From positions 1 through 64,000 of the forward strand of contig JAPLOA010000075.1 in NCBI GenBank assembly GCA_026400835.1: a stretch of DNA of 64,000 nucleotides, written 5' to 3'. Positions 8,003 through 46,647 of the stretch are shown here, piece by piece. Position numbers and translations under genes: made by a program. How positions within the stretch are numbered: the first letter of the stretch is position 1; the number at the start of each line of letters is the position of its first letter. A model generated the notes under the pieces. It worked only from the letters and a program-made list of their open reading frames with translations. It was not told where the DNA came from and did no database searches. This DNA is from Planctomycetales bacterium (GTDB taxonomy: Bacteria > Planctomycetota > Planctomycetia > Planctomycetales > Planctomycetaceae).

Positions 8003-8089
8003 AGACTATGCATCGGATGCTTTCCGTGGTAACTTTTCAACAGCGAAGTTCCAGGGCATTTCCTTTCATTCAAAACCGTAGGCAGCACC

Positions 8090-8413: not shown

Positions 8414-8441
8414 ATCTCTTTTTTAAGCTGGAGTCGACTTC

Positions 8442-22731: not shown

Positions 22732-22916
22732 CGTGTCATCTTTTCTGACAGAGGTAGTAAACAATGCCGACAATCAGGAGAGGCAGCGATTCATTGTAAT
22801 GTGGCGGGAGTCATGTGTCGCGGGTCGCACTGGCCGTCGTCAATTTTCAGTCGCTGCCAGATGCCAGTAAGTCCTGGCCGGAAGTTGTTCCCGATTTCTG
22901 CAGAAAATGGCCATCC

Positions 22917-25301: not shown

Positions 25302-25499
25302 TCAGCTCGAAACGGATTCAGTCACATCGCTCGCAGTGACCAATGCGTAGATTTTTCCAGACACCTCAGCGACATCTGCAGGATGTGTGTCGCGAGAGGC
25401 TGTCAGTCGAACTTCTGATAGTCGGCCATAGAGTGACATCGCCAAAAATTCGCCAATTGCTATGCATTGAAGATCGTCACGCCAATCCTTGCCTATCAC
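25302..25499 (-). CDS. small ORF coupled to beta-RFAP synthase, function unknown
   Basis: This 65-residue frame starts at GTG 25499, inside the last codons of the beta-RFAP synthase gene (23-base overlap), and its stop abuts the hairpin at 25268-25292. It has no family resemblance that I recognise. The sequence begins MIGKDWRDDLQCIAIGEFLA and is short for a domain. Translational coupling and the flush terminator argue that it is real. A fortuitous frame is the alternative. Confidence 0.4.
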   Translation of the reverse strand: MIGKDWRDDLQCIAIGEFLAMSLYGRLSEVRLTASRDTHPADVAEVSGKIYALVTASDVTESVSS

Positions 25500-26472
25500 T
25501 CACTTCCGGACATTCTGTACGCAGCGAGGCTCCGATATTGAGCGGTTCAGCGATGTCGACTCGGAGCTGTGTGCCATCGATATCTGGCGGAATACGATCG
25601 ACAATTGACTGAGCATGTTCGATCGATGAGGCAGGGATGCTGATGCCCGGCCCCCATGATGACTGAGCAGCTCCGTGAATCCCTGCCGCACGCAACATGG
25701 CGACGAGTCTTCTAATCACGGGATGAGCAAAGATATCGCCTTGTTCAGATGCATAAAATCGCCCAACAGCATCACCATACTCTTCAATGCTAACGGAGAA
25801 TCTTTCGAACTCCTCGTTTCGGATCGCCGGCACAAGACAATCATTGATCCGGCTTACCAACGACTCCACCAACGACTTGGACATGATGGTTCGTTGATTA
25901 AAGAACGAGCGTTCTCGATCCCCACAAAGTCCCTGAGCGTTCGATGGCCGAATCAAGACAAATCGCCAAGCTTCAGGCATCGCAATTCGCTCAACTTTTC
26001 TTGGCTGCGAGTCGGTATCGGGTACTCCATGATCAATTAAAAAACCACCATCACGGAATCCAACAGTCCCAATCGCAGATCTCTCCGCACGTTGAGCAAG
26101 ATCCGCCAGCCGATAAGGATCATGGATCGCTCGATGATTAGCCAGAAGTGCTGCGGCCGCAGCAATCGCAAGGCCAAGCTGAGTACCGCCGCCGAGCCCC
26201 GTGTGAAACGGAACTTCAGATTTCACGGACAGTTCAACAGCCGGTAGCGACAGCGTATGACGAATCTTCTGCAAAAACTCAGCAACACGACCTGTCGTCT
26301 CCAAAGATGCTGAGATCTGATCAACAGCAGCCGTAGTATTCCTGATCGCGATTCGCCAGGACGGTTGTCGCAGCATGACTCCAACGCCACCAAATCGCCA
26401 ACCCGTCTGGGGAGTTCCGCAGATCAATCCGAAGTGCAGTCGAGATCCCGTTATTACTTGTACGTTCATCAT
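25477..26472 (-). CDS. beta-ribofuranosylaminobenzene 5'-phosphate synthase (GHMP kinase fold)
   Basis: The 331-residue protein opens with VQVITGSRLHFGLICGTPQT and has the GHMP kinase phosphate loop variant PFHTGLGGGTQLGLAIAAA. It has no kinase role in this branch: beta-RFAP synthase condenses 4-hydroxybenzoate-type acceptors with PRPP in the first committed step of tetrahydromethanopterin synthesis. Planctomycetes have tetrahydromethanopterin-linked C1 genes. Its start overlaps the end of the DUF447 gene by 4 bases, so the two are probably translated together. A general GHMP-family protein is the alternative. Confidence 0.87.
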   Translation of the reverse strand: MMNVQVITGSRLHFGLICGTPQTGWRFGGVGVMLRQPSWRIAIRNTTAAVDQISASLETTGRVAEFLQKIRHTLSLPAVELSVKSEVPFHTGLGGGTQLGLAIAAAAALLANHRAIHDPYRLADLAQRAERSAIGTVGFRDGGFLIDHGVPDTDSQPRKVERIAMPEAWRFVLIRPSNAQGLCGDRERSFFNQRTIMSKSLVESLVSRINDCLVPAIRNEEFERFSVSIEEYGDAVGRFYASEQGDIFAHPVIRRLVAMLRAAGIHGAAQSSWGPGISIPASSIEHAQSIVDRIPPDIDGTQLRVDIAEPLNIGASLRTECPEVSDRQGLA

Positions 26473-27041
26473 ACAGAGCCTTGTTCATGGCCACTGATGA
26501 ATTCGTCCAGCATCGCGAATGCTGACAGTTCCTGCGGCCCTCCTGTTTTTTCAACAGCCGATCGCATCGGGATCAATGCCGACAAAACATCTTCACGAGA
26601 CAGAATATGCAGGCGTGTCGCAAGGATGGCGGCTTCCAATACCGCGTGACGAGCTCGATTGAATCCAAAAAACGGTCGGCGTTCGCCTCGATAGACAATC
26701 GTGGATGGCATTCGACTGCGTGCTTCGGACGCGTCGACATGGTCAACAGTAAACTCAAACCAGCGACAGCAATCTTTCAGCACATAACCATCGGTGACCG
26801 ATGCTCTCACAACATCGGGATTGGTTTCCAGGCGTCCAATTGCGGCCCGGGCAATCACCTCGACCTGATCCACAACATGGAAGACGCCACATCGCATCGT
26901 TGAAAGATTATGAAACGTCGTAGAAGGCTGAAACGGGCGCAGAAGGAGACGCTCGAAATCCCCTTCAATAATCGGCCCCATCGGAGCGACGTTCAGAGAA
27001 CCCGCAGAATCAATGCTGGTAACGATGCCTTCAACAATCAT
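26469..27041 (-). CDS. DUF447 family protein (tetrahydromethanopterin-linked)
   Basis: The 190-residue protein begins MIVEGIVTSIDSAGSLNVAPMGPI, the typical DUF447 opening, and has ARHAVLEAAILATRLHIL and VEKTGGPQE in the C-terminal half. The N-terminal region resembles a flavin-reductase-like beta barrel. DUF447 genes accompany C1-transfer and methanopterin genes in methylotrophs and methanogens, where a role in cofactor synthesis is suspected but not settled. Here it overlaps the beta-RFAP synthase gene by 4 bases, which supports that link. Confidence 0.87.
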   Translation of the reverse strand: MIVEGIVTSIDSAGSLNVAPMGPIIEGDFERLLLRPFQPSTTFHNLSTMRCGVFHVVDQVEVIARAAIGRLETNPDVVRASVTDGYVLKDCCRWFEFTVDHVDASEARSRMPSTIVYRGERRPFFGFNRARHAVLEAAILATRLHILSREDVLSALIPMRSAVEKTGGPQELSAFAMLDEFISGHEQGSV

Positions 27042-31726: not shown

Positions 31727-32118
31727 ACGATCACAGTGACCTCAACAACGCAAATCCTGACGTTGTTTTCTCCTTGCTTGAGAAACCTATTCAAGACTTA
31801 GAGACTTTAAAAAAACATTGAAAATCCGTAAACCTCAAGTCTTTCCAAATCGATCCTTGCCACGCTCCTCAAAACTACTGTATTTCTCAAACTCCCGATT
31901 CCTGCATGCTTGCCCCAACCGACAATTCACGCAGGCTCCACATGCTTCCGCTAAAACTCGTCCAGCCAAAGCCAGCTCAGTGGGCTTATTTGCCTCGGGC
32001 TGCGAGGCGTCCGCGAGGCTGAGTCAGCCAGACCCCGGAACCAACCCATCGTGCGAATTGAGAAACTCTAAAACCCACGACTTGCCGAGTTCCGGATCGG
32101 CTCTCAGAATCCCAGCCT
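31727..32118. other. 392-bp intergenic region between divergent mscS and SpoU-like genes
   Basis: It must carry promoters for both divergent genes. The start of mscS is at 31726 and of the methyltransferase at 32119. No conserved frame, repeat or RNA signature is visible. Confidence 0.5.
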
Positions 32119-32922
32119 ATGTCACACGCAAGAATTGATTCGCTGGAAGACTCCCGTCTTGACGCATTCCGCAGCCTGAAAACTCAAAACCTCCAACGCG
32201 ACAACGGCCTTTTTATTGCCGAGGGTCCAACGGTTGTCGACCGAGTGCTGCGCAGCGGGTTTGAAGTACGCAGTGTGCTGATCAGTGACAGCAAATTTGC
32301 ATCATTCGAGGATCGGCTTCCGCTTGATGTTCCAGTGTATCGCCTGAAGTCTGAACTTGCCGACTCGCTGGTGGGATTCAACTTTCATTGCGGAGTCATG
32401 GCCAGTGTGGTTCGACGCCAGTCGCCGCCTCCGGAAACGTGGCTGCCACCAGCAGGCCCCGCACTGATTCTGGCAGGAGACAGGATCGTGGATCCGGAGA
32501 ACGTCGGTGCTCTCGTTCGTATCGCTTCGGCCTTTGGTGCCTCAGCCGTCATGTTCAGCAAGGGATCGGCCGATGCTTTTTCGCGCCGAGTACTGCGCGT
32601 CTCCATGGGCAACGTTTTGTTTCTTCCCGTGCTCGAACAGGTGGACCTTCCTGCAAGTCTCCAGGATCTCAGAGAACGTCACGGCTTTCAGATCTGCTCA
32701 ACGATCCTTGACTCGAAAGCCCAGTCACTTTCCGCCTATCAGTTTCCGGAGCGCACGATTTTGATCATGGGCAATGAATACGATGGTGTTTCCGCTGAGG
32801 TTCAGATGGCAACTTCAGCAAAGCTGACCATCCCAATGCTTAACGGTACCGACTCGTTGAATGTGGCTGTTTCATCAGGAATCTTCCTGCATCATTATCG
32901 AAGTCAGTATCCGGGCCACTGA
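32119..32922 (+). CDS. SpoU/TrmH-family RNA 2'-O-methyltransferase
   Basis: The 267-residue protein has the SPOUT signature motifs: NVGALVRIASAFGASAVMF (motif 1), IMGNEYDGVSAEV (motif 2) and IPMLNGTDSLNVAVSSGIFLH (motif 3, which forms the knotted SAM site). The N-terminal 95 residues (LDAFRSLKTQNLQRDNGLFI) resemble the substrate-binding domain of RlmB/TsnR-type enzymes. It should 2'-O-methylate a ribose in rRNA or tRNA; the target nucleotide is not readable. Family assignment is strong. Confidence 0.92.
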   Translation: MSHARIDSLEDSRLDAFRSLKTQNLQRDNGLFIAEGPTVVDRVLRSGFEVRSVLISDSKFASFEDRLPLDVPVYRLKSELADSLVGFNFHCGVMASVVRRQSPPPETWLPPAGPALILAGDRIVDPENVGALVRIASAFGASAVMFSKGSADAFSRRVLRVSMGNVLFLPVLEQVDLPASLQDLRERHGFQICSTILDSKAQSLSAYQFPERTILIMGNEYDGVSAEVQMATSAKLTIPMLNGTDSLNVAVSSGIFLHHYRSQYPGH

Positions 32923-33538
32923 TCCTTTAATAGGAAATGCCAGACGCGGCACACTCACCGCTGAGATCTTCTACAAGCTGATATGCATTCGCTGCTTCCA
33001 CTGGATGCGACTGCACTGGTCGTTCTTACTCATCGGAAGTCACCCATGAACAAGAGGCCAGTCAACGCGATCTCTAATGAATCTTAGAAAGGCATTTTTG
33101 TGCCGATTCGCTCTGTTTTACTTACCGCAGATCACTGAACAAGCTCTGCGTGGATATGACGCGTCAAGAGAAATCGTTCGGTGAATCCAGTGAACAAATC
33201 TGATTGACGAGCATCTTCAGAAATTTCCCGGTCTGCTCAGGTGTGATGGACTCTGTCGAGGACGTACCACAGTGCGATACCTTTGCCAGCTTCACAGGTC
33301 GACATGCTCAACGGGACATTTTCCTCGAATGGAGCAAAGCCCGTTGCTGCTTCAAGTCGAAGACCTCCGTTGTGCGCCATACCGTCCGTCCATGTCATCA
33401 GACGTCTCATTTCACTGGCGACATGACCAGGGAAAATCCGTTGAAGCGCAGGAAGAAAAAATCCGAGGCGACGAATGAAATCGACTCTACCAAGGCCCGA
33501 AACGCACTATCGCAGCCCGCCGTACCGCTAAGCGTTCT
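32923..33538. other. 616-bp intergenic region at the end of the polyketide operon
   Basis: This gap lies between the convergent SpoU-like gene and the last gene of the biosynthetic operon. A plus-strand frame crosses it but overlaps the acyltransferase gene in antisense and has no family resemblance. I saw no clear terminator. Confidence 0.5.
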
Positions 33539-35002
33539 TCATGCATCCTGGGAATCCTTGGCTGTCGTTTCCTCGGAAGGAAATGCGAAGTTACATAACT
33601 GGCTCACCAGGGCTGTCGCAAATGTCTGTGTCTCCTCCAATTTCAGAAATCTGGAAGAAGAGCATACAGTCAATGTGAGTCGTCGGCCTGCTTCGCACGT
33701 GGCCACACTGAGCGGAACGTTTCTGGCGCATGGTGCAAAGCCTGTGATGTTCTCCAATACAAGCCCGCCAGCGATCAGCACGCCCTCTCGAACAGTAATC
33801 AGTCGCCTCACACTGCGTGTCATGTCACAAAGACAGGTCCATTGCAGAGAAGGCACGAACCATTCCAGCCACTGGAAAAAATCCAAACCGAACGGAATTC
33901 TGACTGCCGTGGCAAGCCCCTTGATGAACTCAGCACCGACATGATTAGACAGCACATACTGCATTTCACTATGCACTCCCCGCAACAGTTTTGCAGGATC
34001 GTGGCACTCAGAACGGACGCGACGCAGAAATGCAAGACCAAATCGATTCGCAGCTGGCAACGTGCGATCCGACGACCGGCGAAGATCGACCGGATTCAGC
34101 ACAGTTACTTGATGATTGGGACTACGTCCCGGTGACAATCGGGAAAATGTGCTCATGCAACAAACGATCACAAGATCATTCAGAGTAACCTTCCACGCAG
34201 ACAAACGCTCCTGGAGCTGTTGGTATTGTTCGACCGTCAGGATGTGCTCTACACAAAAACTCGTGGACTTGCCGGCAGCCGTAAGTTTTGCCAAAGGCCA
34301 GCGACATGTACGCCCACGAACTGTTGCGAGAAAATTCCTTATCGCATCCCGTATGCTCACCGGAGCGACAGTCGCTGGCAGATGAAACCTGTGACGCTCG
34401 TGCAACTGATCCAGATTAAGTTTTGGCAGTCGATGTGGTGTGCCATTGACTTCGCTGTGATACAAATGCAGCCAGTCAGTAATGATTGCCTGACGGAGAC
34501 CGTTGCCATCTGTCACAGCGTGATGAGCGTCGATGATGCACTTGATGCCATCGTCCATCACCATCAGCCTGGCATGCAAACCTGCCGATTTTCGAAGATC
34601 AATTGTGGTCGACAGTGCCCCGCATTCCGGCTCAAAAATGGATCCTGCCGCCTGGCAAACTTTGATCAGCTCCCCAGCCCCCTGAATCCAGACAAGCTGA
34701 CCGTTCTGTTCGGCAATGCGACATGTGAGGAGCGGATGTCGGCTGATGGAACGCCTTAATGTATCCTGCAGCATATCCAACCGGGCCGTGCCGGAAAGGC
34801 GAACGATCATGCGAATGACCATCGGGCTTTCCGGGGTATCGGAATGAAAAAGAAACTTTTCAAGTGGGGTCAGCGGCAGTGGGAAGACTAACAACTGCTG
34901 TGACCGGCCATCTGAGGCCTCTGGATTGGTTGAAGATCCTGTAGGTGGCCCATCATTACCGATAACTGAGCGGCTCACAGATTGAAACTCCAGATCGCGC
35001 AT
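33539..35002 (-). CDS. condensation/wax-ester-synthase-like acyltransferase
   Basis: From the ATG at 35002 the protein has 487 residues; the frame opens at 35044 but that start lies inside the SDR gene. The active-site motif HHAVTDG (residues 160-166) is the HHxxxDG of the CoA-dependent acyltransferase superfamily (NRPS condensation domains, WS/DGAT, alcohol acyltransferases). Upstream lie LTPLEKFLFHSDTPESPMVI and RHPLLTCRIAEQNGQLVWI, which fit the N-terminal half of such enzymes; NPVDLRRSS resembles the C-terminal structural motif. It would transfer an acyl chain to an alcohol or amine. It is the last gene of the operon, 7 bases after the SDR, so it may esterify the product. Confidence 0.78.
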   Translation of the reverse strand: MRDLEFQSVSRSVIGNDGPPTGSSTNPEASDGRSQQLLVFPLPLTPLEKFLFHSDTPESPMVIRMIVRLSGTARLDMLQDTLRRSISRHPLLTCRIAEQNGQLVWIQGAGELIKVCQAAGSIFEPECGALSTTIDLRKSAGLHARLMVMDDGIKCIIDAHHAVTDGNGLRQAIITDWLHLYHSEVNGTPHRLPKLNLDQLHERHRFHLPATVAPVSIRDAIRNFLATVRGRTCRWPLAKLTAAGKSTSFCVEHILTVEQYQQLQERLSAWKVTLNDLVIVCCMSTFSRLSPGRSPNHQVTVLNPVDLRRSSDRTLPAANRFGLAFLRRVRSECHDPAKLLRGVHSEMQYVLSNHVGAEFIKGLATAVRIPFGLDFFQWLEWFVPSLQWTCLCDMTRSVRRLITVREGVLIAGGLVLENITGFAPCARNVPLSVATCEAGRRLTLTVCSSSRFLKLEETQTFATALVSQLCNFAFPSEETTAKDSQDA

Positions 35003-35009
35003 TTGATTA

Positions 35010-35774
35010 CTACACTCGGATACTGATCCCACCATCCACAACAATGACCTGCCCCTGAATCAATTCACTAAAACGACTTGCCAGAAACAATACCGTTCCT
35101 GCCACGTCAGCCGGCTTGAGCATTCGATCTCGTACAAGTATCTGCTCTTGAACAGATTTCAGCATGCCTTCAGATCCCGGCAACGTCCTGATAGCGTCTG
35201 TAGCAACGATTCCTGGCATTATCGCGTTAACGTTAACACCCGAACGCCCAAGCTCAAACGCCAAATGTCGAACAAGACTTTCCAAAGCTGCCTTGGATGT
35301 CCCAATCAGCCCATAATTGGCAATTCCTCGAATGGACCCATGGCTTGAGATGGCAATGACTCGCGAGATCCCTTCCGTAGACTGAAACAACGGTAAGGCC
35401 GCCTGCGTCAACCAAAGCAGAGGTGCAGCATTCATTCTCATGATCGAATCAAAGCTAGCTGGGGTTGCCTGTGTCAGGGGGCGAAAACCTCCTGCGGCGG
35501 CATTGCTGACAATGATATCCAGCTTGCCAAATTGCTCATCAATGACGTCCATCATAGCTTGCACATCGTCTCGTTCCGAAACGTCAGCCCTTACTGCGAT
35601 CGCCTGACCACCGCAACTCTGGATTGAATTGACTACTTCCTTTGCTCCTTCAGCAGAGTTCAGAAAATTGACAATCACTGAGGCCCCGCAAGCCGCGAGT
35701 GACTCTGCGCATGCACGGCCAATACCCCGAGACGCCCCGGAAACCAGTGCCACTTTTCCATTGAGATCAAACAT
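35010..35774 (-). CDS. SDR oxidoreductase of enoyl-ACP reductase III (FabL)-like type
   Basis: The 254-residue protein is a classical short-chain dehydrogenase with the cofactor motif SGASRGIG (12-19) and VSNAAAGG (89-96). The active-site spacing is unusual for FabG: Tyr154 and Lys161 are separated by six residues (NYGLIGTSK), the Y-x6-K arrangement of FabI/FabL enoyl reductases rather than Y-x3-K. With ISSHGSIR before it and the RGQ-type end (IQGQVIVVDGG), it resembles FabL in length and order. It could therefore supply the enoyl reduction that the megasynthase lacks. Its ATG overlaps the Rieske stop by one base (TAATG). A ketoreductase role remains possible. Confidence 0.82.
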   Translation of the reverse strand: MFDLNGKVALVSGASRGIGRACAESLAACGASVIVNFLNSAEGAKEVVNSIQSCGGQAIAVRADVSERDDVQAMMDVIDEQFGKLDIIVSNAAAGGFRPLTQATPASFDSIMRMNAAPLLWLTQAALPLFQSTEGISRVIAISSHGSIRGIANYGLIGTSKAALESLVRHLAFELGRSGVNVNAIMPGIVATDAIRTLPGSEGMLKSVQEQILVRDRMLKPADVAGTVLFLASRFSELIQGQVIVVDGGISIRV

Positions 35775-36973
35775 TATTTCTGCTCCGAAATCGGCGTATC
35801 GATGAAATGCTCGGGGTGTGATTCAGCGCCCGCAGTGTCGTGTGAAGTCCGTATCCTTTCGCCCATCCGGATCAGTTCTGTCAGGAACTTCTGAAAGGCA
35901 TAGAGACGTTCCTCGCAGCGACCAAACAACGAATGATCGGTCGCGACTTGCTCACCACGCTGAACATGCTGGAAGATCTGAAGATCCTCTTTCAGGACCT
36001 GATGAGACAGCCAGGCCGTGACTCTTGCCCACATTGCTGCAGTCAGCCGCGAAAATGGATTTTTCCTCAATGACTGCCGACCGTATTGCCAAACATTACT
36101 TGACGCGGTTGTACTGCCTGTCGGCCGTACCACCTGGAACAAAGTCAGCGAGTCCGTGTGTGAGACAAGCAGATTTGGAAACACGTGATGGTGTTGATAC
36201 TTCCCCAGAAACGGGGCTCCCATGATCTTCAGCAGGAACTGCTCGTAGAAACGCATGAACCTGTCAATAAGCCGTGGGCCAACAAACGATGTGTAAAATG
36301 ACGTCGAAGACGACGAGAGCGAATGATGGCTTTCTGATTCGCCTGGATCTTCGCCAAATGAATGAGGATGAACCTCCGGAATATGATAGCTTTCCAGAGA
36401 GACTTCCACTGGCACCTTCCAGTTGGAGGGGGCTGATACGTTTAGATGAGCAATCGGCCTCCACACGGCTGAAGAGGTCCACGCTTCAAATCGCTCGAAT
36501 AGGTCTCCCATCCATTCTTTCAGAGAGGGGCCCTCGGGGGCGATTCGCACAAACAGAAGATCGCCGCATTGTTCAAGGGAGAATTTTTTCAAACGAAAGC
36601 GGTCACGATCAAAGTTGGGGAAATTCTTCGCTGCAGGGATCTTTCTGGTGCGACCATCGGCTCCGTACTCCCAGCCATGATAGGGACATTTCAGTTTTTC
36701 GCTCTGGCCAGCCGCAGCGGAAACAAGAGTGCAGTGTCGGTGAGCGCAAACATTCAATAACGCAGACAGTTCTCCCTCAAAGTTTCGCACCACGACCGGG
36801 ATTCTGCCGACTTCTGCAGCCAGATACTGGCCAGGCTTGTTGATCGAAGAGACCAGTCCGACCAGTTGCCAGGTCGTTTCGAAAACGTACTGATTCTCCC
36901 GTGCTAACACCTCCTCCGAACAATAGTCCTGTGGAGTCAACGGCGCCTGAAATGATACGGTTGTTTGGTACAT
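35774..36973 (-). CDS. Rieske [2Fe-2S] non-haem iron oxygenase
   Basis: The 399-residue protein has the Rieske cluster motif CAHRH...CPYHGW (Cys76, His78, Cys96, His99) and the mononuclear iron motif ESYHIPEVH (His197, His202). The remaining catalytic-domain residues match ring-hydroxylating alpha-subunit-type oxygenases that act on single substrates (GbcA/CarAa-like). It needs a separate reductase, which is not in the operon. In context it probably hydroxylates or desaturates the acyl product, but the substrate is inference. It lies 10 bases after the megasynthase and overlaps the SDR start by one base. Confidence 0.87.
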   Translation of the reverse strand: MYQTTVSFQAPLTPQDYCSEEVLARENQYVFETTWQLVGLVSSINKPGQYLAAEVGRIPVVVRNFEGELSALLNVCAHRHCTLVSAAAGQSEKLKCPYHGWEYGADGRTRKIPAAKNFPNFDRDRFRLKKFSLEQCGDLLFVRIAPEGPSLKEWMGDLFERFEAWTSSAVWRPIAHLNVSAPSNWKVPVEVSLESYHIPEVHPHSFGEDPGESESHHSLSSSSTSFYTSFVGPRLIDRFMRFYEQFLLKIMGAPFLGKYQHHHVFPNLLVSHTDSLTLFQVVRPTGSTTASSNVWQYGRQSLRKNPFSRLTAAMWARVTAWLSHQVLKEDLQIFQHVQRGEQVATDHSLFGRCEERLYAFQKFLTELIRMGERIRTSHDTAGAESHPEHFIDTPISEQK

Positions 36974-36983
36974 GAATGGTGGT

Positions 36984-39900
36984 TCAACTGGTTTTTAGCC
37001 AGCCAATTCGATAACCCGTAACGGTCAATAATCGATCTCCGTTATGCCCCTGCAACTGGAAGTTCCAGACGGCCCCGGAATCCGAGAGATTAGTCTGCTG
37101 GATTCGAACGAGACATGGCTCGCCAGGATCAGGCAGACGACCAAATTCGATCTGGTCAAATCGCACTGGAAGACTGGGCTTCTGGTGACGATGCCACGCT
37201 GCATATCCAACGGCGTACAGACACGCATCCATCGTGGAACAAGGCACTGTAAACCCGCGGGCACGAGATCCACCAAACAACTGCACTGGCGCTGAGGAGG
37301 CAATTCGACCAAAAATGGTCTCCCCATCATCTGCGATTTCTCGCAATTCCTGAAGTTCAGGGCCATGATAGATCACGCCCTCGGGGTCAACATATTCTAT
37401 TCGCTTCCAGACAGGATCATGCGGACGCTGAATTACGGCATTCGAAGGCGTCTGCTGAAAGCCGCGGCTGATATCAAATTTCGCCCGGAAGAACTCTCTA
37501 TCTTCCTCGACCATTCGGCCATCACGTCGACGCACATCTGCAAGCAGTCGACATTCGATAGTTCCATCTTCTGCCGGACGTGTCTGCACAGTAACTGCCA
37601 GCGGATCATCCGTAGAGAACCTGATCGCCTGTAACGCACGTGCTTCAATACATACGCCGGGACTTGAATCGCCCGTTCTGACTCGAACAGCTTCCGCCAT
37701 CAGCTCAAGGGCTACTACGAACGGCAGGGTAGGACGCCCCTGAACTCGATGCTGCGACAGGAATCGATCGGTGACTGGATTGAGGGTAACAACACTCGAA
37801 CACACTCCATCCGCATGCTCAGTGAAGCTCGTCGGAATGAGTGGCACCGGCAACGCCTGACCAGCATCTCCGGTGAGCGACAAACGCTCCGCAGGAAAGA
37901 ACTTTCGGAAGTAACTTTCATCAGTGATCAGAACTTCTGCTTCGCTTCCGCCGAATTCGACTTCATTCATGAAGTGCTCAATGCCCTCCCGAGCCGGCAT
38001 GAACTCCATGTCGATCATTTCCAGCGCTAACTTTGCTTCGGGTTTCGTGGCCATGCCAATGTCACCCCAGGCATGCCAGTGAAAGGTAAAGCTCCGAACC
38101 TCGGGACGTTCGCTTCTGTATCGATCGACAATCTTGGCCATCATATCGTTGGCCAGAGAATAGTCCGTGTGGCCATTGGCACCAAACCGACCGCTGATCG
38201 ATCCAAAGGCTACAAAACACTCAAGCGGATCAGTCTGCGTTGCCTGCATCAGTGCGAGCGACCCATCAATCTTCGCCTGCAAACACTTCTCAACTTTGTC
38301 GGGACGTTTTCGATCGAACCGAGCGTCCTGACCAGCTCCTGCTCCATGAATGACGCCGTTCAACGGTCCGAACTGCTCCCGAATTCTTCGAACCGTAAGT
38401 TCCACATCCGAAAAATCTGAAACGTCGCAACAGTGGTATGTGGCTTCAACATTCTGACGGCGACATTCACGCAGAGTGGCGTCAATCTCAATCGCCTTTT
38501 CTGTGTTCCGCCACGCTTCAACAGGATTCTCGCCGCGAGAAGACGCTTCCTGCATTATGCTGCGACGCACGCCGCCACGATCAGATGCCACCATCCGCAC
38601 AAAGTCATCACTTAACTGAGGGGCAGGGGCGGTCCCCAGCATGTGGATCCGCAGGTCATATTTCTTCGCGAGGGTCGTAGCGATCACCGCGGTGATTCCG
38701 CGACCTCCTCCAGAAACGATCCATGTTCCACCCCTGATTATCTGCTTCTTATAGCCAAACGCCGCTTCTTTTAACGGGGCAGCAATCGCCTGAACCGACA
38801 GTCGTTCGGGCTCCTGAGGAGTCACGTTTGACGATCGGAACGCAATCTCCATGTCGTACGACGGAACGGCCAACTCCTGCATAACTCCCGCTGCAATCTC
38901 CGACATGCTCATGCCGGACGCCACATCGACTACCTTCATGGGCGTCGTTCGAAACCCCCGCATCCAGCATTCGATAAGCATCGCCTTCACGAGCCCTCCA
39001 ATGGCCTCTATGCTGCGCACACTTCGCCCGCTGAAGCCGAATTCTCCTCCCAGTTGGGTCACGGAAACAACGCTGGCATCTTCCATTCGGTTGGCATCAA
39101 TAGTCTTTTGCATCCAGAGCTGACAGATTCTGAATGGCGAGGTCAATGCAGCAGACCGACGCGATTTCCAATCAGACTCTGAAAGGCTTTGCGCCGACCG
39201 ATTGTCGAACGCCATTGTCAGAAACAAATGGGGCGTCGGTGTGTGCTGCCAGAGTTCAGTGAGAGTTCTCTCGATCTGCTCGATCGGACCATCGGTATTG
39301 AGCACAAACACTTTTTGCCCAAGCTGTTGTACGCGATCCGCAATCGCGTCCGCGAGAGCGTTGGCACCGAGGATGAGAACGGCTCCTTTGAGCTCAGGAG
39401 TCAGTGGCATGTCTTTCCGCCGAGGTGCAGAAACGACTCGCAATGTGTAACGATTTGTTTTTTGCCCGCTGCTTTCTTTAGGTGCAACGGACGGAGAGTC
39501 ATCGCGATCAGATGTTACAGGCCGCTTTAAAGGCTCCTCAACAGGAATCCTTGTCAGACGATTGGCCGCATGGTCCTGCTCCAAAACCAACGATGCAGCT
39601 AGTCTGACTGACGAGTCTGAAACACCGGCAGCTTCAGCAATCCCCTTAAGATGGGCGACCTCGGAAGCCGACCAGGCTCTGTCCTCAGCGGAAACGTTCT
39701 GCCCGTAGACCATTGATCGCAGGGCTGCGCGAATTTCTGCTTGAAACTTTTGGCCGACAACGGTTCCTGTTGAATGCGCGGTCTCAGTTGACTTGCCACG
39801 ACTGTCTGCCGGAACAAGCCATGCAGACCAGTCCGAAGACAACGCACTGACCGGCGCAACGCCTCGCACCTGCGACGTCGCTGATACAGCAGCCACTCCT

Positions 39901-42900
39901 GGCGGCCTTGCTGCTGCGGGATTCAAGGAAAGCGATGACTCAGGCGGAGTTGAAAATTCGTGCCGACTTCCCCACGAGTTATCAGCACTCTTCACAACAG
40001 GAGGCTCAGCAGGAGTAGCAACCATCGAATGTATGCCCGACGCTTGTGGCCCCTCTTCAGATCCACCTGCATGCGTGATCAGAAACTCACGAATTCCACG
40101 CAATGTTCTGAAACGGGCCTGCGCGATGGATTCCAGTGTCAGTGACTCCAGATTGAACTGTTCACGCATCTCACCAATCAATTGCGCAAGCTTAATACTG
40201 TCCAGTCCCAGATCGGCCTCCAGGTCAGCATCGATATCCACGATGTCACGCGAATATCCCGTCTGATCGACGACATAGTCAATCAGCAGTGCGTCAAGTC
40301 GATCGCTGGACGGAAGCAGGCTGCTGTTGGTTCGCACAGGAACGGAAACCACAGCAGCATGAACTTCCACGGATTGAACTGATGGCTGAACAGGAGAAAA
40401 TACTGTCGCCGTTGGCACCTGTCGAGGCTTGCTGTCGGCCGCAAGCTTCTGCGCGACACGAACGGCGTCATCCAGCGTTCTGACAGAGTCCAGCCGCAAT
40501 GATTCAGGTCGAACAGTCAGACCCATCCATTCGCCGAGTTCTCCCAGAATCTGTGCCTTCTTGATACTGTCAACACCAAGGTCTGCTTCAAGGTCTGCTT
40601 CGAAGTCAATAACTTCCGGAGCATAACCGGTCAGCTCAATGACAAGATCTCGAACGAAGGCTCGCAACTGCGCATCGGAGAATGCTGGTGTGGCGGCAGC
40701 AGCTTGTATTGGAACAGCCGAAGTGACAGCTTCTGACAGCGTTAATGGCTGAAGAACAGGCTGATCGGGTTGCGATGGCTGGCTTACCTGCGATCCCACT
40801 TCAGACGCATCTTTTCGAACAGGCTTCCTGAGGACTCGCCGTGACTTCGTGACATCAATCACTGCTCCGGATGAACCCACGGCAGCAGAACCAGTACTCT
40901 CGGCCACAACGATTTGCGTTGGGAAGACTGATCGAGATCCTGAGTTGTTTACCTGCGGCTTGATTGTATTGCCGGTCACGCATTCCACGACAGCATTCAC
41001 CATTGCCATGCGTTCGATGTAAGACTGTCCGGGAACATCGAGACTCAGACACAAAGCCTGGGAGTCGACAATGTCGCGATTCATGCGAGTCAGCACATCA
41101 TTGGGGCCGACTTCGAGGAATACTCGGAAGCCTTCACCAAGCATCCGCTGAATCGACGGCAGATACATCACTGGCTGCGTCAACTGACGCACAAGGCTTT
41201 GGCGGATCCCCGATGGTTCTGCCAGATATTGGACGCTCGTCGCAGACAGGAATCCACAAACTGGAGGGCGCATCGACACACCGGCCGACATTCGTTCAAA
41301 CGCAATTTCTGCGTCAGCCAGAAGGGGAGTGTGAAATGGAGCCGGAACCGGGATCGACATTGATGCCAGTCCCTGTCGATCCAGCAGTGCCTTGGCACTC
41401 GAAATTCCTTCACGACTGCCCGCAATGACCGTTTGTCTCGATGAATTCAAGTGAGTGACATACGCTGGTAATGCAGCAGACTTCAGGATTGCATCGACTT
41501 CATGAACCGCGGCGCGAACTGAAAGCAAGCCACCCGGAGTTCGCATATGCGACATTACGGCATTGGCTCGGTGTTTGGCCAGCTCGACCGTTTGCGATAA
41601 CGAGGTTACGCTTGATGCAAGCGAAGCGGTAAATTCACCAAAGCTGTGTCCGAGAACTGCATCCGGGCGATGGCCTTCCGCCTTCAATGCTTCCGTCAAC
41701 GCGGCTGTGACTCCCAGAATCCACGCTTGTGCCCACCAGACGTCTTCACCGGGTTTGATCGAGCTATTGCCGAAAGCATCGCTGAGTCTGGGAAGATGGT
41801 TTGACACATAAAGATCATCTACGGCAGCAAGTGTTCGCCTCGCGTGTTCGTTCACAGCGAAAACGGCAGGTGTCTCTGTGTAATGCGATCCTTGCCCGGG
41901 GAACAGCCAGGCAACGCGTGTTGCTTCATTAAATGTCTGCCAAAGAATCACTCGTTCACGATCAAGTACTGCGCGGAATCGGCCAGACTCCGCCGACTTA
42001 ACGGCGGCATTGAGCCGATCTTTAAGTTGCCCGACATCACTGGCCAGAATTACCACACGGAACACGTCGTGCTCTGTGAAGGCAGGACACGAATGGCCAG
42101 TGCCTGAAGGGCTGCGGCTTCGATTGACCTGCGACAACTCGAGAAAGCGATTTGGTGACTGAACGGCCTCTTTCAGCAGCCTCAGCAATTCTGCACCAGA
42201 TGTGCCTCCAAATCGCACGCTGAGTGGCAGGCCGTGGGGTGTTGCAACGGGATTCGTCATGATTCGAGTTACTTGATGAGTCGATAAGTTTTGAGAGAGA
42301 ACCGAGTTATTGTTCTTTGGCGAACTTGCCAGCGGGGGAAGAACCTTTTGCCGAAGCGAGACTTTCAGGTCTGCCTGAATGACGACTCCGTCCACTGTTT
42401 TTGTAGCAACGGGAATCGTTGAGTGCCGTGTCGAGTCTGGTGCATACGACTCCACATCGGTGCCCAATGTTTCTGCTGTGATTCTGACCAGCGAGTGTGC
42501 TCCCGCAAGATAACCTATCTTTCGGACAATGGCGGCGTCGGCAGCATTCAGTGTCTGAATAGCCTCGCGGCACTCTCCGGAACTCAATAACGATCCCTCT
42601 GGAACGCACGAAGTGCGTTGGCCGACTTCGTTGAGGATCCCATAGATCGGCAGTCCAAGCCGCATCGCGTCCGAGAGTCGACAAAGCATCAGAGTCACAA
42701 CGCCTTCGCCCGGGAGAATCTGATGACAATCGTCGGGAACATCGTCGGGACTTCCGGATCTCACGAGCCTTCCAGTCATATCGAGCGATTCAAACGCTGA
42801 CAGGCTCATTGATCGCTGAGCAGAACCGCAAACAACCATGTCGCATGTTTCTGCTCGGAGCTGATCCATCGCGACAGTCAACGCCGCAAGCCCCGAAGTA

Positions 42901-45089
42901 TCGTCGCTATCAAGTGCAGCGGCTCCCCCCATCAGGTCGAATGTTTTGGCAACTCTGGAGGCCAGCGTGCTGGCTGTGAAACTTCCTGTTTCGTCGAGCA
43001 GGGCAGGGCGATTCTTAAGGATAATCTTTCGGAATTCTTCAGTAGTTTTGTCGGCAAGGTCCGAAGAGATCCCTTTGGACAGCATTGATGCCATCATTCG
43101 CTGACAGATTTCAGGCAGCCTCATTCCAACCTGAAGCTGATCTCCGAACTCACCACCAAAGATAGTTCCGATGACAACTCCGACTCGTTGACGATCGACA
43201 GGCCACACGGTCTCTTTTGCGGTTGATTTCTGTGCCGTGGGATTAACAACTTCCGCAATTGATGCCGCAGAATTCGTCATCTCGGCTAAAGCCTGAGCGA
43301 CAGCATCTATCAACATCATTTGAACTGGATTAGCTTGCTGGACCTGCTTCGGCGGAATGCGGTAACGAGCCCCATCGAAGGTGAAGTCATTAATGAAACC
43401 TCCGCGACAATGGGGCGACGAATATGTCAGAGGAGATTCGCCTGAAACAATTCCCGCACCATTTCGCCATCGCTCCACAGGCGCGTCGGAGATAGCGGAA
43501 TGGGGAGATCTCAGGACTGTTCGGAACTCGTGCAGGTTCTTCGCCCCGGCAACGACAATTCCACGACCGACGATGGCAATTGGTTCCGGAACACGAGATT
43601 GCTCGTTCGTTTCAGCGACTCGTTTCATCCCGGGGGCTATTTGTCCGCGATGCTCTTCAATAACAACATGAGCATTCAAACCGCCGATACCGAAAGCACT
43701 CACCGCAGCACGACGTGGCCGCCTTTCCAGTTCTTCTTCAGGCCACGCGGCTCCCGCGGCAACCACTCTTACCGGCGCTGTTGACCAATCATAATTGTGA
43801 TTGGGATGCTCAAATCGCAGGGACGGAGGAATCTGACGACGGCGCATGGCCAGCAGAACTTTGACTACACCAATCAACCCAGCAGCTTCCAGCGTATGAC
43901 CGATGTTGGACTTTACGCTTCCAAGGAGAAGCCGTTGCTGCGGCAATCTGCCATCCGGAAACGCGGGACTTCGATCGGCCAGATATCTCAATGTTTCCAG
44001 CTCGGTCGCATCGCCCAGTTGAGTGCTGGTCGCATGCGCCTCCATGTAGTCGATGTCCAACACTGCAGAATCGACATACGCTCGCTGCAGGGCCAGGACC
44101 TGACCTTCCATTCGTGGAGCCCACAGACTGCGTCCCTTGCCATCCGATGCCATGCCTACGCCACAGACGACGCCTAGAATTGGCAGTGAGAATTGTTCGG
44201 CTTTGTCCTGCGTCGTTATGACAATCGCGACATAACCTTCCGAACTCACAAGACCGCTGGCACCATCGTCAAATGGTCGCGAATCAGTGGCCGTGCAGGC
44301 CTGGGAGTGAGAAAAGAGAATCAGGTTGTCAACATTGTTGTAGGTCGCTCCCCCCACGATCGCACTGTCCAGCCGACCTGCTCGAATCGCGAGTATTGCC
44401 TGAGACAGGGCTACCAGAGATGAAGCACACGCGGCGTCGATTACAGACCGCGGACCAGTGAGGCCCAGAACCCGCGATGCTAACGCTGCTGCCTGATAAG
44501 CATGAAAACTCGGAACAGCACCAATACGACGAGAAGGACGGACTTCTCGAACAGAATGAGCCACTTCAGAAATAATCTGTCGACGAACGTTCTCAGGAAG
44601 CTGACGGAATGCGTCAATATCATCAACGAATGAAAGCGCTTCCTCGATCTGTGTCCCGAGGCTTAGTCCTCCACCGGATTTCGTGCCGCCGGAGTGTCCG
44701 ACGTAAACGCCGGTCCGCTGCAAACGAGAATCTTCCCGTTGCAAAGTCGCATTCCGCCAGGCTGTGGCTGCCACCTCGGCAAACTGCACATGAGCGGCGT
44801 CGAAGAGTGATTCGGTCTGCGAAGGCAGTGGGCAGACTTCTCGATTCAGCGGACGCTCAGGAACGATTCCTCCCAGAGTCGTATATGACTTTCCGGTTTT
44901 CCCTTTTTGTGAGTCAAAATACAGGTCTCGGTCACATCGATCCGGTGGAAGTTGGCCATAGCCCGTTCGTCCGTTGAAAAGCAGGTCAGCAAATTCAGTG
45001 ACGCTGTCCGCTCCGGGAACACGACAGGCAATGCCCACAATAACGACTGGTGATTCAACCCCTGCAGATTCGGAAGGCCTAGCGGACAT
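36984..45089 (-). CDS. PUFA-synthase-like iterative type I polyketide/fatty acid synthase
   Basis: The 2701-residue enzyme starts at the ATG at 45089, which has GGAGG six bases upstream (GTCGGAGGTCGCTT); the frame opens 18 codons earlier. Domain order: KS (about 15-440, active Cys221 in DAACASSL, EAHATST and SNIGHT histidines); a KS-like domain (about 500-900) with Asp730 where the Cys should be; AT (about 1040-1340, GHSFGE, Ser1149); two ACPs with LGVDSIK and LGLDSIK (Ser1508, Ser1631); KR with a PfaA-type structural half (about 1820-2370, GGGRGITA, Tyr2310); and DH (about 2410-2690, QHRVQGRP, His2447). No ER or thioesterase is present. The DSIK ACPs and KR-DH end resemble PUFA synthase PfaA. 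Likely cytoplasmic; the product is unknown. Confidence 0.9.
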   Translation of the reverse strand: MSARPSESAGVESPVVIVGIACRVPGADSVTEFADLLFNGRTGYGQLPPDRCDRDLYFDSQKGKTGKSYTTLGGIVPERPLNREVCPLPSQTESLFDAAHVQFAEVAATAWRNATLQREDSRLQRTGVYVGHSGGTKSGGGLSLGTQIEEALSFVDDIDAFRQLPENVRRQIISEVAHSVREVRPSRRIGAVPSFHAYQAAALASRVLGLTGPRSVIDAACASSLVALSQAILAIRAGRLDSAIVGGATYNNVDNLILFSHSQACTATDSRPFDDGASGLVSSEGYVAIVITTQDKAEQFSLPILGVVCGVGMASDGKGRSLWAPRMEGQVLALQRAYVDSAVLDIDYMEAHATSTQLGDATELETLRYLADRSPAFPDGRLPQQRLLLGSVKSNIGHTLEAAGLIGVVKVLLAMRRRQIPPSLRFEHPNHNYDWSTAPVRVVAAGAAWPEEELERRPRRAAVSAFGIGGLNAHVVIEEHRGQIAPGMKRVAETNEQSRVPEPIAIVGRGIVVAGAKNLHEFRTVLRSPHSAISDAPVERWRNGAGIVSGESPLTYSSPHCRGGFINDFTFDGARYRIPPKQVQQANPVQMMLIDAVAQALAEMTNSAASIAEVVNPTAQKSTAKETVWPVDRQRVGVVIGTIFGGEFGDQLQVGMRLPEICQRMMASMLSKGISSDLADKTTEEFRKIILKNRPALLDETGSFTASTLASRVAKTFDLMGGAAALDSDDTSGLAALTVAMDQLRAETCDMVVCGSAQRSMSLSAFESLDMTGRLVRSGSPDDVPDDCHQILPGEGVVTLMLCRLSDAMRLGLPIYGILNEVGQRTSCVPEGSLLSSGECREAIQTLNAADAAIVRKIGYLAGAHSLVRITAETLGTDVESYAPDSTRHSTIPVATKTVDGVVIQADLKVSLRQKVLPPLASSPKNNNSVLSQNLSTHQVTRIMTNPVATPHGLPLSVRFGGTSGAELLRLLKEAVQSPNRFLELSQVNRSRSPSGTGHSCPAFTEHDVFRVVILASDVGQLKDRLNAAVKSAESGRFRAVLDRERVILWQTFNEATRVAWLFPGQGSHYTETPAVFAVNEHARRTLAAVDDLYVSNHLPRLSDAFGNSSIKPGEDVWWAQAWILGVTAALTEALKAEGHRPDAVLGHSFGEFTASLASSVTSLSQTVELAKHRANAVMSHMRTPGGLLSVRAAVHEVDAILKSAALPAYVTHLNSSRQTVIAGSREGISSAKALLDRQGLASMSIPVPAPFHTPLLADAEIAFERMSAGVSMRPPVCGFLSATSVQYLAEPSGIRQSLVRQLTQPVMYLPSIQRMLGEGFRVFLEVGPNDVLTRMNRDIVDSQALCLSLDVPGQSYIERMAMVNAVVECVTGNTIKPQVNNSGSRSVFPTQIVVAESTGSAAVGSSGAVIDVTKSRRVLRKPVRKDASEVGSQVSQPSQPDQPVLQPLTLSEAVTSAVPIQAAAATPAFSDAQLRAFVRDLVIELTGYAPEVIDFEADLEADLGVDSIKKAQILGELGEWMGLTVRPESLRLDSVRTLDDAVRVAQKLAADSKPRQVPTATVFSPVQPSVQSVEVHAAVVSVPVRTNSSLLPSSDRLDALLIDYVVDQTGYSRDIVDIDADLEADLGLDSIKLAQLIGEMREQFNLESLTLESIAQARFRTLRGIREFLITHAGGSEEGPQASGIHSMVATPAEPPVVKSADNSWGSRHEFSTPPESSLSLNPAAARPPGVAAVSATSQVRGVAPVSALSSDWSAWLVPADSRGKSTETAHSTGTVVGQKFQAEIRAALRSMVYGQNVSAEDRAWSASEVAHLKGIAEAAGVSDSSVRLAASLVLEQDHAANRLTRIPVEEPLKRPVTSDRDDSPSVAPKESSGQKTNRYTLRVVSAPRRKDMPLTPELKGAVLILGANALADAIADRVQQLGQKVFVLNTDGPIEQIERTLTELWQHTPTPHLFLTMAFDNRSAQSLSESDWKSRRSAALTSPFRICQLWMQKTIDANRMEDASVVSVTQLGGEFGFSGRSVRSIEAIGGLVKAMLIECWMRGFRTTPMKVVDVASGMSMSEIAAGVMQELAVPSYDMEIAFRSSNVTPQEPERLSVQAIAAPLKEAAFGYKKQIIRGGTWIVSGGGRGITAVIATTLAKKYDLRIHMLGTAPAPQLSDDFVRMVASDRGGVRRSIMQEASSRGENPVEAWRNTEKAIEIDATLRECRRQNVEATYHCCDVSDFSDVELTVRRIREQFGPLNGVIHGAGAGQDARFDRKRPDKVEKCLQAKIDGSLALMQATQTDPLECFVAFGSISGRFGANGHTDYSLANDMMAKIVDRYRSERPEVRSFTFHWHAWGDIGMATKPEAKLALEMIDMEFMPAREGIEHFMNEVEFGGSEAEVLITDESYFRKFFPAERLSLTGDAGQALPVPLIPTSFTEHADGVCSSVVTLNPVTDRFLSQHRVQGRPTLPFVVALELMAEAVRVRTGDSSPGVCIEARALQAIRFSTDDPLAVTVQTRPAEDGTIECRLLADVRRRDGRMVEEDREFFRAKFDISRGFQQTPSNAVIQRPHDPVWKRIEYVDPEGVIYHGPELQELREIADDGETIFGRIASSAPVQLFGGSRARGFTVPCSTMDACLYAVGYAAWHRHQKPSLPVRFDQIEFGRLPDPGEPCLVRIQQTNLSDSGAVWNFQLQGHNGDRLLTVTGYRIGWLKTS

Positions 45090-46647
45090 AAGCGACCTCC
45101 GACTTGCTGCTGACCTGACTCGCATGTCGCTGAACGGCCGCAATCAGTTTTGAAAAGCTTTCAATCAAGCCTGTTGATGGACCAAGCTGAAGGGTGCGGT
45201 CCTGAAGTGCGTGGTGATCATGATAAAAATCTGATTCAGTCAACAACACTCCTGCCGCTGACGCCTGTGCAACCGTCTTATGACCCGTTGTCAGTTCCCC
45301 AAAGACTGTGGAGGAAACAATTATGCGAGAAGGCGCGTTTCCGGCGTGAGCAGTTCTGACAGTCCAGCCGCGTCTGTTTTCTTCAACAACCCACTGTCCA
45401 CCGCAGGGTCCACAGACTTCGATACCGAAAACGCTGGCTGGCAACAAATCCGCCTGATCCATGCTTCGATCGCAATCGAATCTGAACTGATCCCACGCGG
45501 AAGGAGTTAGCCGCAGCACAGTCGGTGGTACTCCCGGTCTAGTCTGTCGCATGCAAAAGTCGCGAAGACGTTCCACTGTCAGTTGCGGCAAATCTGCTTC
45601 TTTGCAGAGTTGCATGGCGTAAACAGTGTTTGTGCGGTCAAACACCGGATCATCCTTGAAGTAAGGCTTAAACGCCGCCACAAATGGCGCGGCCTGTTCA
45701 TCAATCTGTGCCATCGCCTCGACTCGTCGCGATGGCAATTTCACACCACCTTCAAGGACGGCAGCCCGAAAACCATCTTCCAGTTCCGAAGCGGATGTTC
45801 CAGCGGCACTGGTGAGGTGATAGGTGTCGCCGTGAAGAGCAGGGCGACGGTAAATCTCCGCGATCATCGTCGCGACCCAGTCGACAGTCACAATATTCTT
45901 ACGTTCATGGCCACTGAAACCCAGACGTCGAAACCAATCACCTCGCTCCGGAAGTCCAAAACGTTGACTCAGCGCCTGAAACATCACGAATGCACTGTTG
46001 ATCGTTTGATCCGACCTCATGCTGGTTGTTGGGTGCAGATCAATGACAATTGAAGGCCGATAAACCGTGAGCGAGGTGATCTGCTGTGACTGACGCAGCA
46101 TTTGCTCCGACATCGTTTTGCTGCGTTCATAGTCGTTGCCAAACTCCTGTCCGACGTTTGACTCTCGTTCCAGAATGCAACCTGTTCTCAATCCCGCGAT
46201 ATAGGCTGTTGATACATAGTGCCACTCATTGATTCCTGCAGAGGAAGCTAATTCGAGCAGATTCCGGGTTCCGTCCACATTCGTTCGATAGGGCTCATTA
46301 TCCGGATGCTCACTGGCTGGCTTGAAAAGGAGATTTGCTGCGGAGTGAATGACGCTTCCACAGTTCGCGTTTAACCAGGCATGATCCGTCCCTGACAACC
46401 CAAGTCCCGCAGAACAGAGTTCTCCGTCGAGCACCACCGGACGAACAAACAAGCGGTGGAATCGTTCTTCAAGCCTGCGCATCAGCGATTCGATGCGTTC
46501 CTGCGCCGACTGCCGACGATTGCCGCGGACAAGGACAGCCACGGGCAATTCACAGCTTAATAGTCGCGCAAGGACGAGCCCGCCGACGAGGCCTGTCGCT
46601 CCTGTCAGCAATACGAATGGCCGATCTTGACCAGCACTCTTGAGCAT
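45079..46647 (-). CDS. NAD(P)-dependent thioester/fatty acyl reductase with extra C-terminal domain
   Basis: The first gene of the operon encodes 522 residues. The Rossmann motif TGATGLVG (15-22) opens an extended SDR. STAYIAG and YERSK (Tyr173, Lys177) are the active site. The pattern (CGSVIHSAANL, NVDGTRNLLELA, FDRTNT) matches thioester reductase and fatty acyl reductase domains such as HglB/HetM or FAR. It would release the acyl chain from ACP as aldehyde or alcohol. Residues about 390-522 form an extra domain (VCGPCGGQWVVEENRRGW) that might be SCP2-like, with low certainty. The stop overlaps the megasynthase start by 11 bases. Confidence 0.83.
   Translation of the reverse strand: MLKSAGQDRPFVLLTGATGLVGGLVLARLLSCELPVAVLVRGNRRQSAQERIESLMRRLEERFHRLFVRPVVLDGELCSAGLGLSGTDHAWLNANCGSVIHSAANLLFKPASEHPDNEPYRTNVDGTRNLLELASSAGINEWHYVSTAYIAGLRTGCILERESNVGQEFGNDYERSKTMSEQMLRQSQQITSLTVYRPSIVIDLHPTTSMRSDQTINSAFVMFQALSQRFGLPERGDWFRRLGFSGHERKNIVTVDWVATMIAEIYRRPALHGDTYHLTSAAGTSASELEDGFRAAVLEGGVKLPSRRVEAMAQIDEQAAPFVAAFKPYFKDDPVFDRTNTVYAMQLCKEADLPQLTVERLRDFCMRQTRPGVPPTVLRLTPSAWDQFRFDCDRSMDQADLLPASVFGIEVCGPCGGQWVVEENRRGWTVRTAHAGNAPSRIIVSSTVFGELTTGHKTVAQASAAGVLLTESDFYHDHHALQDRTLQLGPSTGLIESFSKLIAAVQRHASQVSSKSEVAYVR

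Follow-up and report, generated by a model that had tools for sequence, protein, structure and literature searches.

A Conserved Five-Gene Planctomycete Operon Encoding a Putative Reducing Lipid-Type Synthase with Release and Finishing Enzymes

Introduction

The described pathways closest to the subject of this work are those of the heterocyst glycolipids (Hgl) and of the polyunsaturated fatty acids (PUFAs, made by Pfa synthases), i.e., "secondary lipid" systems. Here, we describe an operon found at positions 33539-46647 of a 64,000-nucleotide stretch of DNA from a Planctomycetales bacterium of the family Planctomycetaceae (assembly GCA_026400835.1, contig JAPLOA010000075.1, positions 1 to 64,000; this entire stretch is referred to as the window). 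The five genes encode a thioester reductase, a megasynthase, a Rieske oxygenase, a short-chain dehydrogenase/reductase (SDR) and an acyltransferase. The operon is akin to the Hgl and Pfa systems and uncharacterized within the literature searched. It is moderately likely to encode a self-contained iterative, largely reducing secondary-lipid synthase together with its release and finishing enzymes, with a capped, oxygenated long-chain lipid as the product.

According to the available text of the survey by Shulse and Allen from 2011 (PMC3098273), HglC of the Hgl cluster (type F) is composed of a ketosynthase (KS), a chain length factor (CLF) and an acyltransferase (AT) domain, and Tables 1 and 2 of the survey contain planctomycete pfa-like clusters of types I and J only. 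HglB is composed of an acyl carrier protein (ACP) and a thioester reductase (TER) domain (excerpt of PMC8064123), while the cluster also includes PfaD and, in some cases, an adjoining SDR (excerpt of PMC8073705). In planctomycetes, hglE-KS clusters were annotated using antiSMASH (excerpts of PMC13190842 and PMC11123730). The operon of the window shares with the Hgl cluster the KS-CLF-AT start, the lipid-type chain, the thioester reductase and the SDR that adjoins some of these clusters. In contrast to the Hgl cluster, a single polypeptide here harbors KS, CLF, AT, two ACPs, a ketoreductase (KR) and a dehydratase (DH), the reductase belongs to a family of the type TER-SCP2 instead of ACP-TER, there is no PfaD, and a Rieske oxygenase and a condensation-type acyltransferase have been added.

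The PUFA synthases and the planctomycete clusters of types I and J resemble the synthase of the window in having KS, CLF, tandem ACPs and KR, and PfaA is its best curated match. However, the synthase falls below the PfaA cut-off, displays a different domain order, carries a DH of the polyketide synthase (PKS) type and is not accompanied by PfaD. In the available text of PMC3098273, PUFA type A has 4-6 ACPs, compared to two in the synthase of the window. Type R of the same text (KS-MAT-CLF-ACP3-6-KR and a phosphopantetheinyl transferase, found in Acidobacteria, Chloroflexi and Elusimicrobia) is similar in that KS, AT, CLF, ACPs and KR reside in one large protein, but in the synthase of the window CLF precedes AT, a DH is present, and the genes of the reductase, Rieske enzyme, SDR and acyltransferase take the place of the adjacent phosphopantetheinyl transferase. 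The domain order of the synthase equals none given in the text of PMC3098273, the orders in its Figure 1 aside.

A preliminary description of this DNA, made from its sequence, knew of no described planctomycete pathway with this set of five genes, and none was seen in the open-access literature searched. The available text of a review on the secondary metabolism of planctomycetes (PMC12078418) gave no match for such a pathway in a term search, and the sole match in the available text of a paper on a planctomycete type III PKS (PMC10896814) was "long-chain", which occurs there for alkylresorcinols.

Architecture and Conservation of the Operon

All five open reading frames (ORFs) are located on the minus strand, to which all coordinates of the operon refer. 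The gene of the reductase (46647-45079) is followed by those of the synthase (to 36984), the Rieske enzyme (36973-35774), the SDR (35774-35010) and the acyltransferase (to 33539). The likeliest start of the synthase is ATG 45089 with GGAGG upstream, which gives a protein of 2,701 rather than 2,719 residues. With the likeliest starts, adjacent genes overlap or are spaced by 1 to 11 bases, i.e., an 11-base overlap between reductase and synthase, a 10-base gap between synthase and Rieske enzyme and a 1-base overlap between Rieske enzyme and SDR. Two starts are conceivable for the acyltransferase, ATG 35002 (7-base gap, 487 residues) or TTG 35044 (35-base overlap, 501 residues). The preliminary description of five co-directional, tightly packed genes was accordingly borne out in gene order and in coordinates. 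One sigma-70-like site was found upstream of the operon (46929-46902; 0.2 expected in shuffled sequences) and one terminator site downstream (0.8 expected).

A search of other genomes for the same cluster, as suggested in the preliminary description, identified all five genes on one strand and in the same order at nine of 80 named loci (L057, L059, L062, L063, L064, L065, L066, L067 and L134). These named loci are the best 80 of 132 relatives; many are truncated where their contig stops, and a part of the contigs was also obtained in a separate search for synthase relatives. Within the nine, the reductase is fused in L063 and L064 and cut by the contig end in L065 and L066, while the acyltransferase is found farther off in L067. 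Two additional loci (L069 and L101) agree with the order as far as the contigs reach. A related synthase is also encoded in a cultivated bacterium, Bythopirellula polymerisocia Pla144 (L118). Over the 80 loci, the reductase is found at 46, the acyltransferase at 39, the SDR at 31 and the Rieske enzyme at 24. The synthases of the relatives are from 97% down to about 40% identical to that of the window, where those at 95-97% are named as planctomycete metagenome-assembled genomes (MAGs). Because the order recurs in the nine loci and in relatives across this range of identities, the gene set is not a product of chance.

Within the genus, the synthase or parts of it are found in seven of 18 genomes (G000, G004, G005, G012, G014, G015 and G017). 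At the level of the family, the CLF domain (E at most 1e-80) was found in at least 40 of 170 genomes, representing 23 of 58 genera, and in an even draw from the phylum it was found in at least 7 of 294 genomes. These family and phylum numbers are lower bounds; in each genome, scoring covered the top 5 or 9 first-look candidates. The genome of the window is included, and G017 was counted as a miss despite containing pieces of the cluster. A branch of the KS-CLF tree (79 rows; SH-aLRT 99) separates 62 rows of other architectures from the side of the window, on which are found eight five-gene loci, the partial loci L058, L060, L069, L085, L087 and L101, as well as L061 and L099, of which L099 has a different gene order. 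This is a quick tree with several long branches, to which 83 loci were offered and from which L063, L094, L107, L108 and L127 were omitted (KS and CLF not in one frame).

We also considered whether the operon was inserted between the genes that now flank it. The flanking PQQ/laminin and MscS genes were located in five genomes of the genus that lack the cluster (G003, G006, G007, G008 and G010), but in all five they are found on different contigs, so that no empty site is demonstrable.

An alternative architecture, in which the genes of the reductase and acyltransferase lie upstream of the synthase in the opposite orientation, was seen at L073, L077, L079, L081, L082, L083, L089, L117 and L130. 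Nine of the 80 loci are labeled Candidatus Kuenenia stuttgartiensis, including L057, the genome of which falls in the genus of the window together with Planctomycetaceae MAGs; these labels look wrong.

The Synthase and Its Putative Enoyl Reductase

The megasynthase (36984-45089) has the Pfam domain order KS-CLF-AT-ACP-ACP-KR-DH, which is the same in near relatives. The KS (43635-45053) displays DAACASS and both His motifs, and is followed by a second, CLF-like KS (42189-43586) in which Asp replaces the catalytic Cys (DSDDTSG). Next in order are the AT (41025-41915; GHSFGE), the two ACPs (40464-40676, LGVDSI, and 40095-40307, LGLDSI), the KR (38064-38729; PF08659, 106.8 bits, motifs present) and the PKS-type DH (37008-37814; PF21089 and PF14765, with HxxxGxxxxP and the Asp motif). 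The catalytic motifs of KS, AT, KR and DH are all present, as are the serines of both ACPs. The loss of Cys from the second KS fits the role of a chain length factor. In an alignment read by eye, this position is occupied by a residue other than Cys in all 15 relatives, while L049 and one synthase of L055 have a Cys one residue later. Two matches to phosphopantetheinyl transferases exceed the cut-off in the genome, and these proteins could activate the ACPs.

The preliminary description had assigned the protein to a lipid-type iterative synthase of the PfaA type. The former part of this assignment is supported, while the latter is ruled out by the PfaA score (TIGR02813, 584.5 of 1010.1 bits, the best curated match), the domain order and the type of dehydratase. 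The dehydratases of PfaC are FabA-type, and no FabA-type match was obtained in the synthase, where the DH region matched PKS_DH_N and PS-DH only (Pfam). The KS-CLF-AT start is instead the order found in HglC (available text of PMC3098273). Searches for the synthase among plasmids (the best 20 of 113 records and the best 25 of 1289) returned proteins of 22.9-29.4% identity from Streptomyces, Methylosinus, Beijerinckia and others, with no cyanobacterial Hgl protein among them.

No enoyl reductase (ER) domain was matched by Pfam in the synthase. A PfaD-type enoyl reductase is not found in the operon, and three matches to PF03060 (the nitronate-monooxygenase family) in the entire genome are all below the cut-off. 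The operon does, however, encode an SDR of 254 residues (35010-35774; adh_short_C2), the nearest solved relative of which is Bacillus subtilis FabL (enoyl reductase III; 3oic) with 179 bits compared to 140 for the next, i.e., a lead of 39 bits. Its active-site residues are arranged as Tyr-x6-Lys, which is the spacing characteristic of FabL, FabI and similar enoyl reductases. This spacing was found in all 12 members of a first set, and in a larger alignment Tyr154 is present in 25 of 26 and Lys161 in 26 of 26. The position corresponding to Y-x3-K is Ile, Leu or Val in each of the 26 and never Tyr. Given this motif, a role of the SDR as a second ketoreductase is unlikely. Because of the Tyr-x6-Lys motif, the proximity to FabL, the lack of a PfaD-type protein over the cut-off and the lack of an ER domain in the synthase, the SDR is probably the missing enoyl reductase of the synthase, acting in trans, which is also the simplest reading of the sequences. 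A FabL-like SDR was proposed already in the preliminary description. The protein differs from FabL in its score, which does not reach the curated cut-off, and in belonging to a PKS operon. Of the 25 loci that contain the synthase end and an additional 3 kb, 21 have an SDR of this family.

Release and Tailoring Enzymes

The thioester (acyl) reductase (45079-46647; 522 residues) matches NAD_binding_4 (PF07993) with 134 bits compared to a cut-off of 20.1 bits, and Tyr173-x3-Lys177 is conserved in 43 of 43 aligned sequences. A Foldseek search with the predicted model gave the reductase (R) domain of MxaA (4w4t) as the best match, followed by a Streptomyces coelicolor structure (8v1x), and the sequence agrees on terminal reductases of the MxaA type. 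MxaA makes alcohols. The curated model TIGR01746 was matched with 105.5 of 213.35 bits, i.e., below the cut-off.

In members of the reductase family the C-terminal domain is SCP2-like; among 29 scanned (the window and 28 of 33 reductase ends, with L063, L087, L112, L120 and L130 left out), the last 150 residues match SCP2 in 17, Alkyl_sulf_C in 12 and SCP2_2 in six. A profile of the C-terminus identified the C-termini of alkylsulfatases in the PDB and, more weakly, SCP2 proteins. The NAD(P)-binding domain begins right at the N-terminus, and no PP-binding (ACP) match was obtained in the reductase. Reductive release, as claimed in the preliminary description, is therefore supported, but not the HglB-like build, which is ACP-TER in the excerpt of PMC8064123, compared to TER-SCP2 in this family. 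At L063 (7285-9945), the reductase and KS are found in one reading frame, with the synthase divided between two frames, and at L064 (3-8105, starting at the contig end) the end of the reductase and KS share a frame. These loci are from separately named assemblies, and the fusion ties release to the synthase. In the window, the two genes are linked by their translational overlap with the GGAGG site. A plasmid search with the reductase returned 41 records, none of which spans 80% of the protein.

A stand-alone paralogue of the reductase is found on contig C10 of G000 (7084-8601; L153) and scores above 400 bits in 16 of the 18 genomes of the genus; the seven stretches examined (L153-L159) contain no synthase domain.

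The Rieske non-heme iron oxygenase (35774-36973; 399 residues) matches PF00355 and PF00848 (Ring_hydroxyl_A). Its ligands, i.e., Cys-x-His and Cys-x2-His as well as Glu194, His197, His202 and Glu329-Asp330, are intact in all 24 aligned sequences. No reductase (electron-transfer) partner is encoded in the operon. G023 has a second Rieske oxygenase gene close to its cluster, on the opposite strand (L044, 2905-4053), and two are likewise seen at L072 and L105.

The last gene encodes a Condensation/PapA5-superfamily acyltransferase (ACYLTRANSFERASE; 33539-35044 with the TTG start) with the motif HHAVTDG. In the window, the Pfam Condensation score (26.1) is below the gathering score (30.6), but among seven acyltransferases scanned, including that of the window, Condensation is matched in seven, PapA_C in one and WS/DGAT (PF03007) in none. 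The nearest structures to the predicted model (mean pLDDT 78.8) in Foldseek are condensation/epimerization domains of nonribosomal peptide synthetases (NRPS), AzeD and PapA5, and a profile search agrees. The enzyme is thus similar to PapA5 and NRPS condensation-type acyltransferases in HHxxxDG and in fold, but the score of the PapA5 model (NF006787) is low (18.8 of 396 bits, below the cut-off), and the enzyme ends a reductive lipid operon. The preliminary description was correct about an acyltransferase with HHxxxDG, but the proposed WS/DGAT-like identity is rejected in favor of Condensation/PapA5, as PF03007 was not matched in the seven. Another condensation-type protein of the genome, the second, is encoded on contig C27 and has a WS/DGAT match just below the cut-off.

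Exchange of the Last Gene

A comparison of the window with G004 (L039/L057) shows that four of the genes are 94-98% identical, whereas the acyltransferases are 51-54% identical. Behind the intact acyltransferase gene is found a broken remnant of an older one (33167-33518, minus strand), which is closest to the L039/L057 enzyme and is seen as a protein-level match that is split into two pieces and contains a stop; the pieces are 59% and 78% identical to the G004-type enzyme. The remnant resides within a segment (32052-33482) that is 89.5% identical to the DNA of L039 from G004. From the remnant behind the intact gene and the divergent acyltransferase next to four conserved genes, we infer that in the lineage of the window the last gene was replaced, or that a further copy was acquired and the original disappeared. 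In G012, the 2.3 kb of contig behind the SDR gene contain no acyltransferase, and the nearest one is found on another contig.

Proposed Pathway and Alternatives

The proposal builds on direct observations, i.e., the gene set, domain order, intact catalytic motifs, conserved linkage and the lack of a PfaD-family protein over the cut-off. The KS-CLF pair would condense malonyl units, which the AT would load onto the two ACPs. The KR and PKS-type DH would reduce and dehydrate in cis, with the FabL-like SDR as the trans enoyl reductase, and a long chain length is probably determined by the CLF-like domain, which has lost the active Cys. The reductase would then free the chain from the ACP as an aldehyde or alcohol, where the SCP2-like domain may hold the hydrophobic product. 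The Rieske enzyme would add one oxidation (hydroxylation or desaturation) using an electron-transfer partner from elsewhere, and the PapA5/condensation-type acyltransferase would esterify a hydroxyl group to yield the capped lipid. In this scheme, we infer a long and mostly saturated chain, as well as the order of tailoring, the two- or four-electron release, the site of oxidation, the acceptor, the acyl donor and the product itself.

A number of observations weigh against this scheme. The SDR scores below the cut-off of the curated FabL model (NF005975, 252.9 of 328 bits), its Tyr is lost in one of the 26 sequences, and no SDR was found at four of the 25 loci (L075, L087, L108 and L115). Among near relatives, the Rieske enzyme was not detected in L085, the SDR in L087 and both in L108, so that neither is strictly required. 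HHxxxD[GA] is found in 31 of 37 aligned acyltransferases, while the first His is replaced by Gln in five and by Asp in one. The model of the reductase is of moderate confidence (mean pLDDT 75.1), and its C-terminus in the window itself matches neither SCP2 nor Alkyl_sulf_C. Furthermore, the Hgl proteins are set apart by published descriptions rather than by sequence comparison.

If the SDR were not the enoyl reductase of the synthase, the product would be only partly reduced, i.e., a polyene or polyhydroxy lipid, on which the reductase and Rieske enzyme would then act. The synthase itself has no ER domain, two of the loci at which no SDR was found (L087 and L108) harbor synthases with the domain order of the window, and 232 SDR-type models match the SDR, including 3-oxoacyl reductases (TIGR01830, 154.5 bits), where the best 25 of the 232 are all below their cut-offs. 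This alternative is considered unlikely, as the motif of the SDR lacks Tyr at the ketoreductase position throughout, FabL is the nearest relative by the lead given above, the genome offers no PfaD-family protein over the cut-off, and a KR is already present in the synthase. A heterocyst-glycolipid-like envelope lipid, in which the alcohol is glycosylated and exported by products of genes elsewhere while the acyltransferase adds an acyl group to the sugar or to an internal hydroxyl, would be in line with the KS-CLF-AT order of HglC (PMC3098273, available text), the reductive release by HglB (PMC8064123, excerpt) and the hglE-KS cluster identified by antiSMASH in a planctomycete (PMC13190842, excerpt). 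However, neither a glycosyltransferase nor an ABC exporter is found among 30 neighboring ORFs scanned (a subset of those in the window), the reductase has no ACP match, and PfaD, a part of the Hgl cluster in the excerpt of PMC8073705, is lacking, which makes such a product quite improbable.

A wax ester is a possible product. As a plain storage lipid, it would be formed when the acyltransferase joins a fatty alcohol from the reductase with acyl-CoA, such that the Rieske enzyme and synthase merely vary the chain. The thioester-reductase fold, the condensation-type fold with HHxxxDG and the C27 protein are compatible with this alternative, which is nevertheless the least probable of those considered, because WS/DGAT is matched in none of the seven acyltransferases and exceeds the cut-off nowhere in the genome (the best score is 21.6 of 23.6 bits), wax esters can be made without a dedicated synthase, and exchange of the acyltransferase next to four nearly identical genes points to a cap that varies and not to bulk storage. 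Within the scheme of a capped, oxygenated lipid, a more specific and very unlikely suggestion is that the products are esterified very-long-chain alcohols oxygenated at mid-chain or at the end (of the long-chain diol or keto-ol type), made by the PKS with a trans FabL, an SCP2-like carrier on the reductase and a swappable cap. Long-chain diols and keto-ols are known from lake and ocean sediments, and their producers are partly unknown. Should the operon indeed yield an alcohol of this oxygenated long-chain kind, it would also be relevant to where such biomarkers in sediments come from.

The synthase family, seen through its CLF in 23 of the 58 genera, offers a compact and testable path to a lipid that has not been seen before. 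It also suggests ideas that may be transferable, i.e., that a stand-alone FabL serves a type I synthase, that a thioester reductase carries its own lipid-binding domain, and that exchange of the last acyltransferase varies the lipid.

Other Genes of the Window

Outside the operon, a gene at 22815-24419 (plus strand) encodes a protein of 534 residues with a Hint-type (PT-HINT) domain and no further Pfam match at 1e-5, and a GHMP-kinase-like gene adjoins a DUF447 gene (both within 25477-27041, minus strand).

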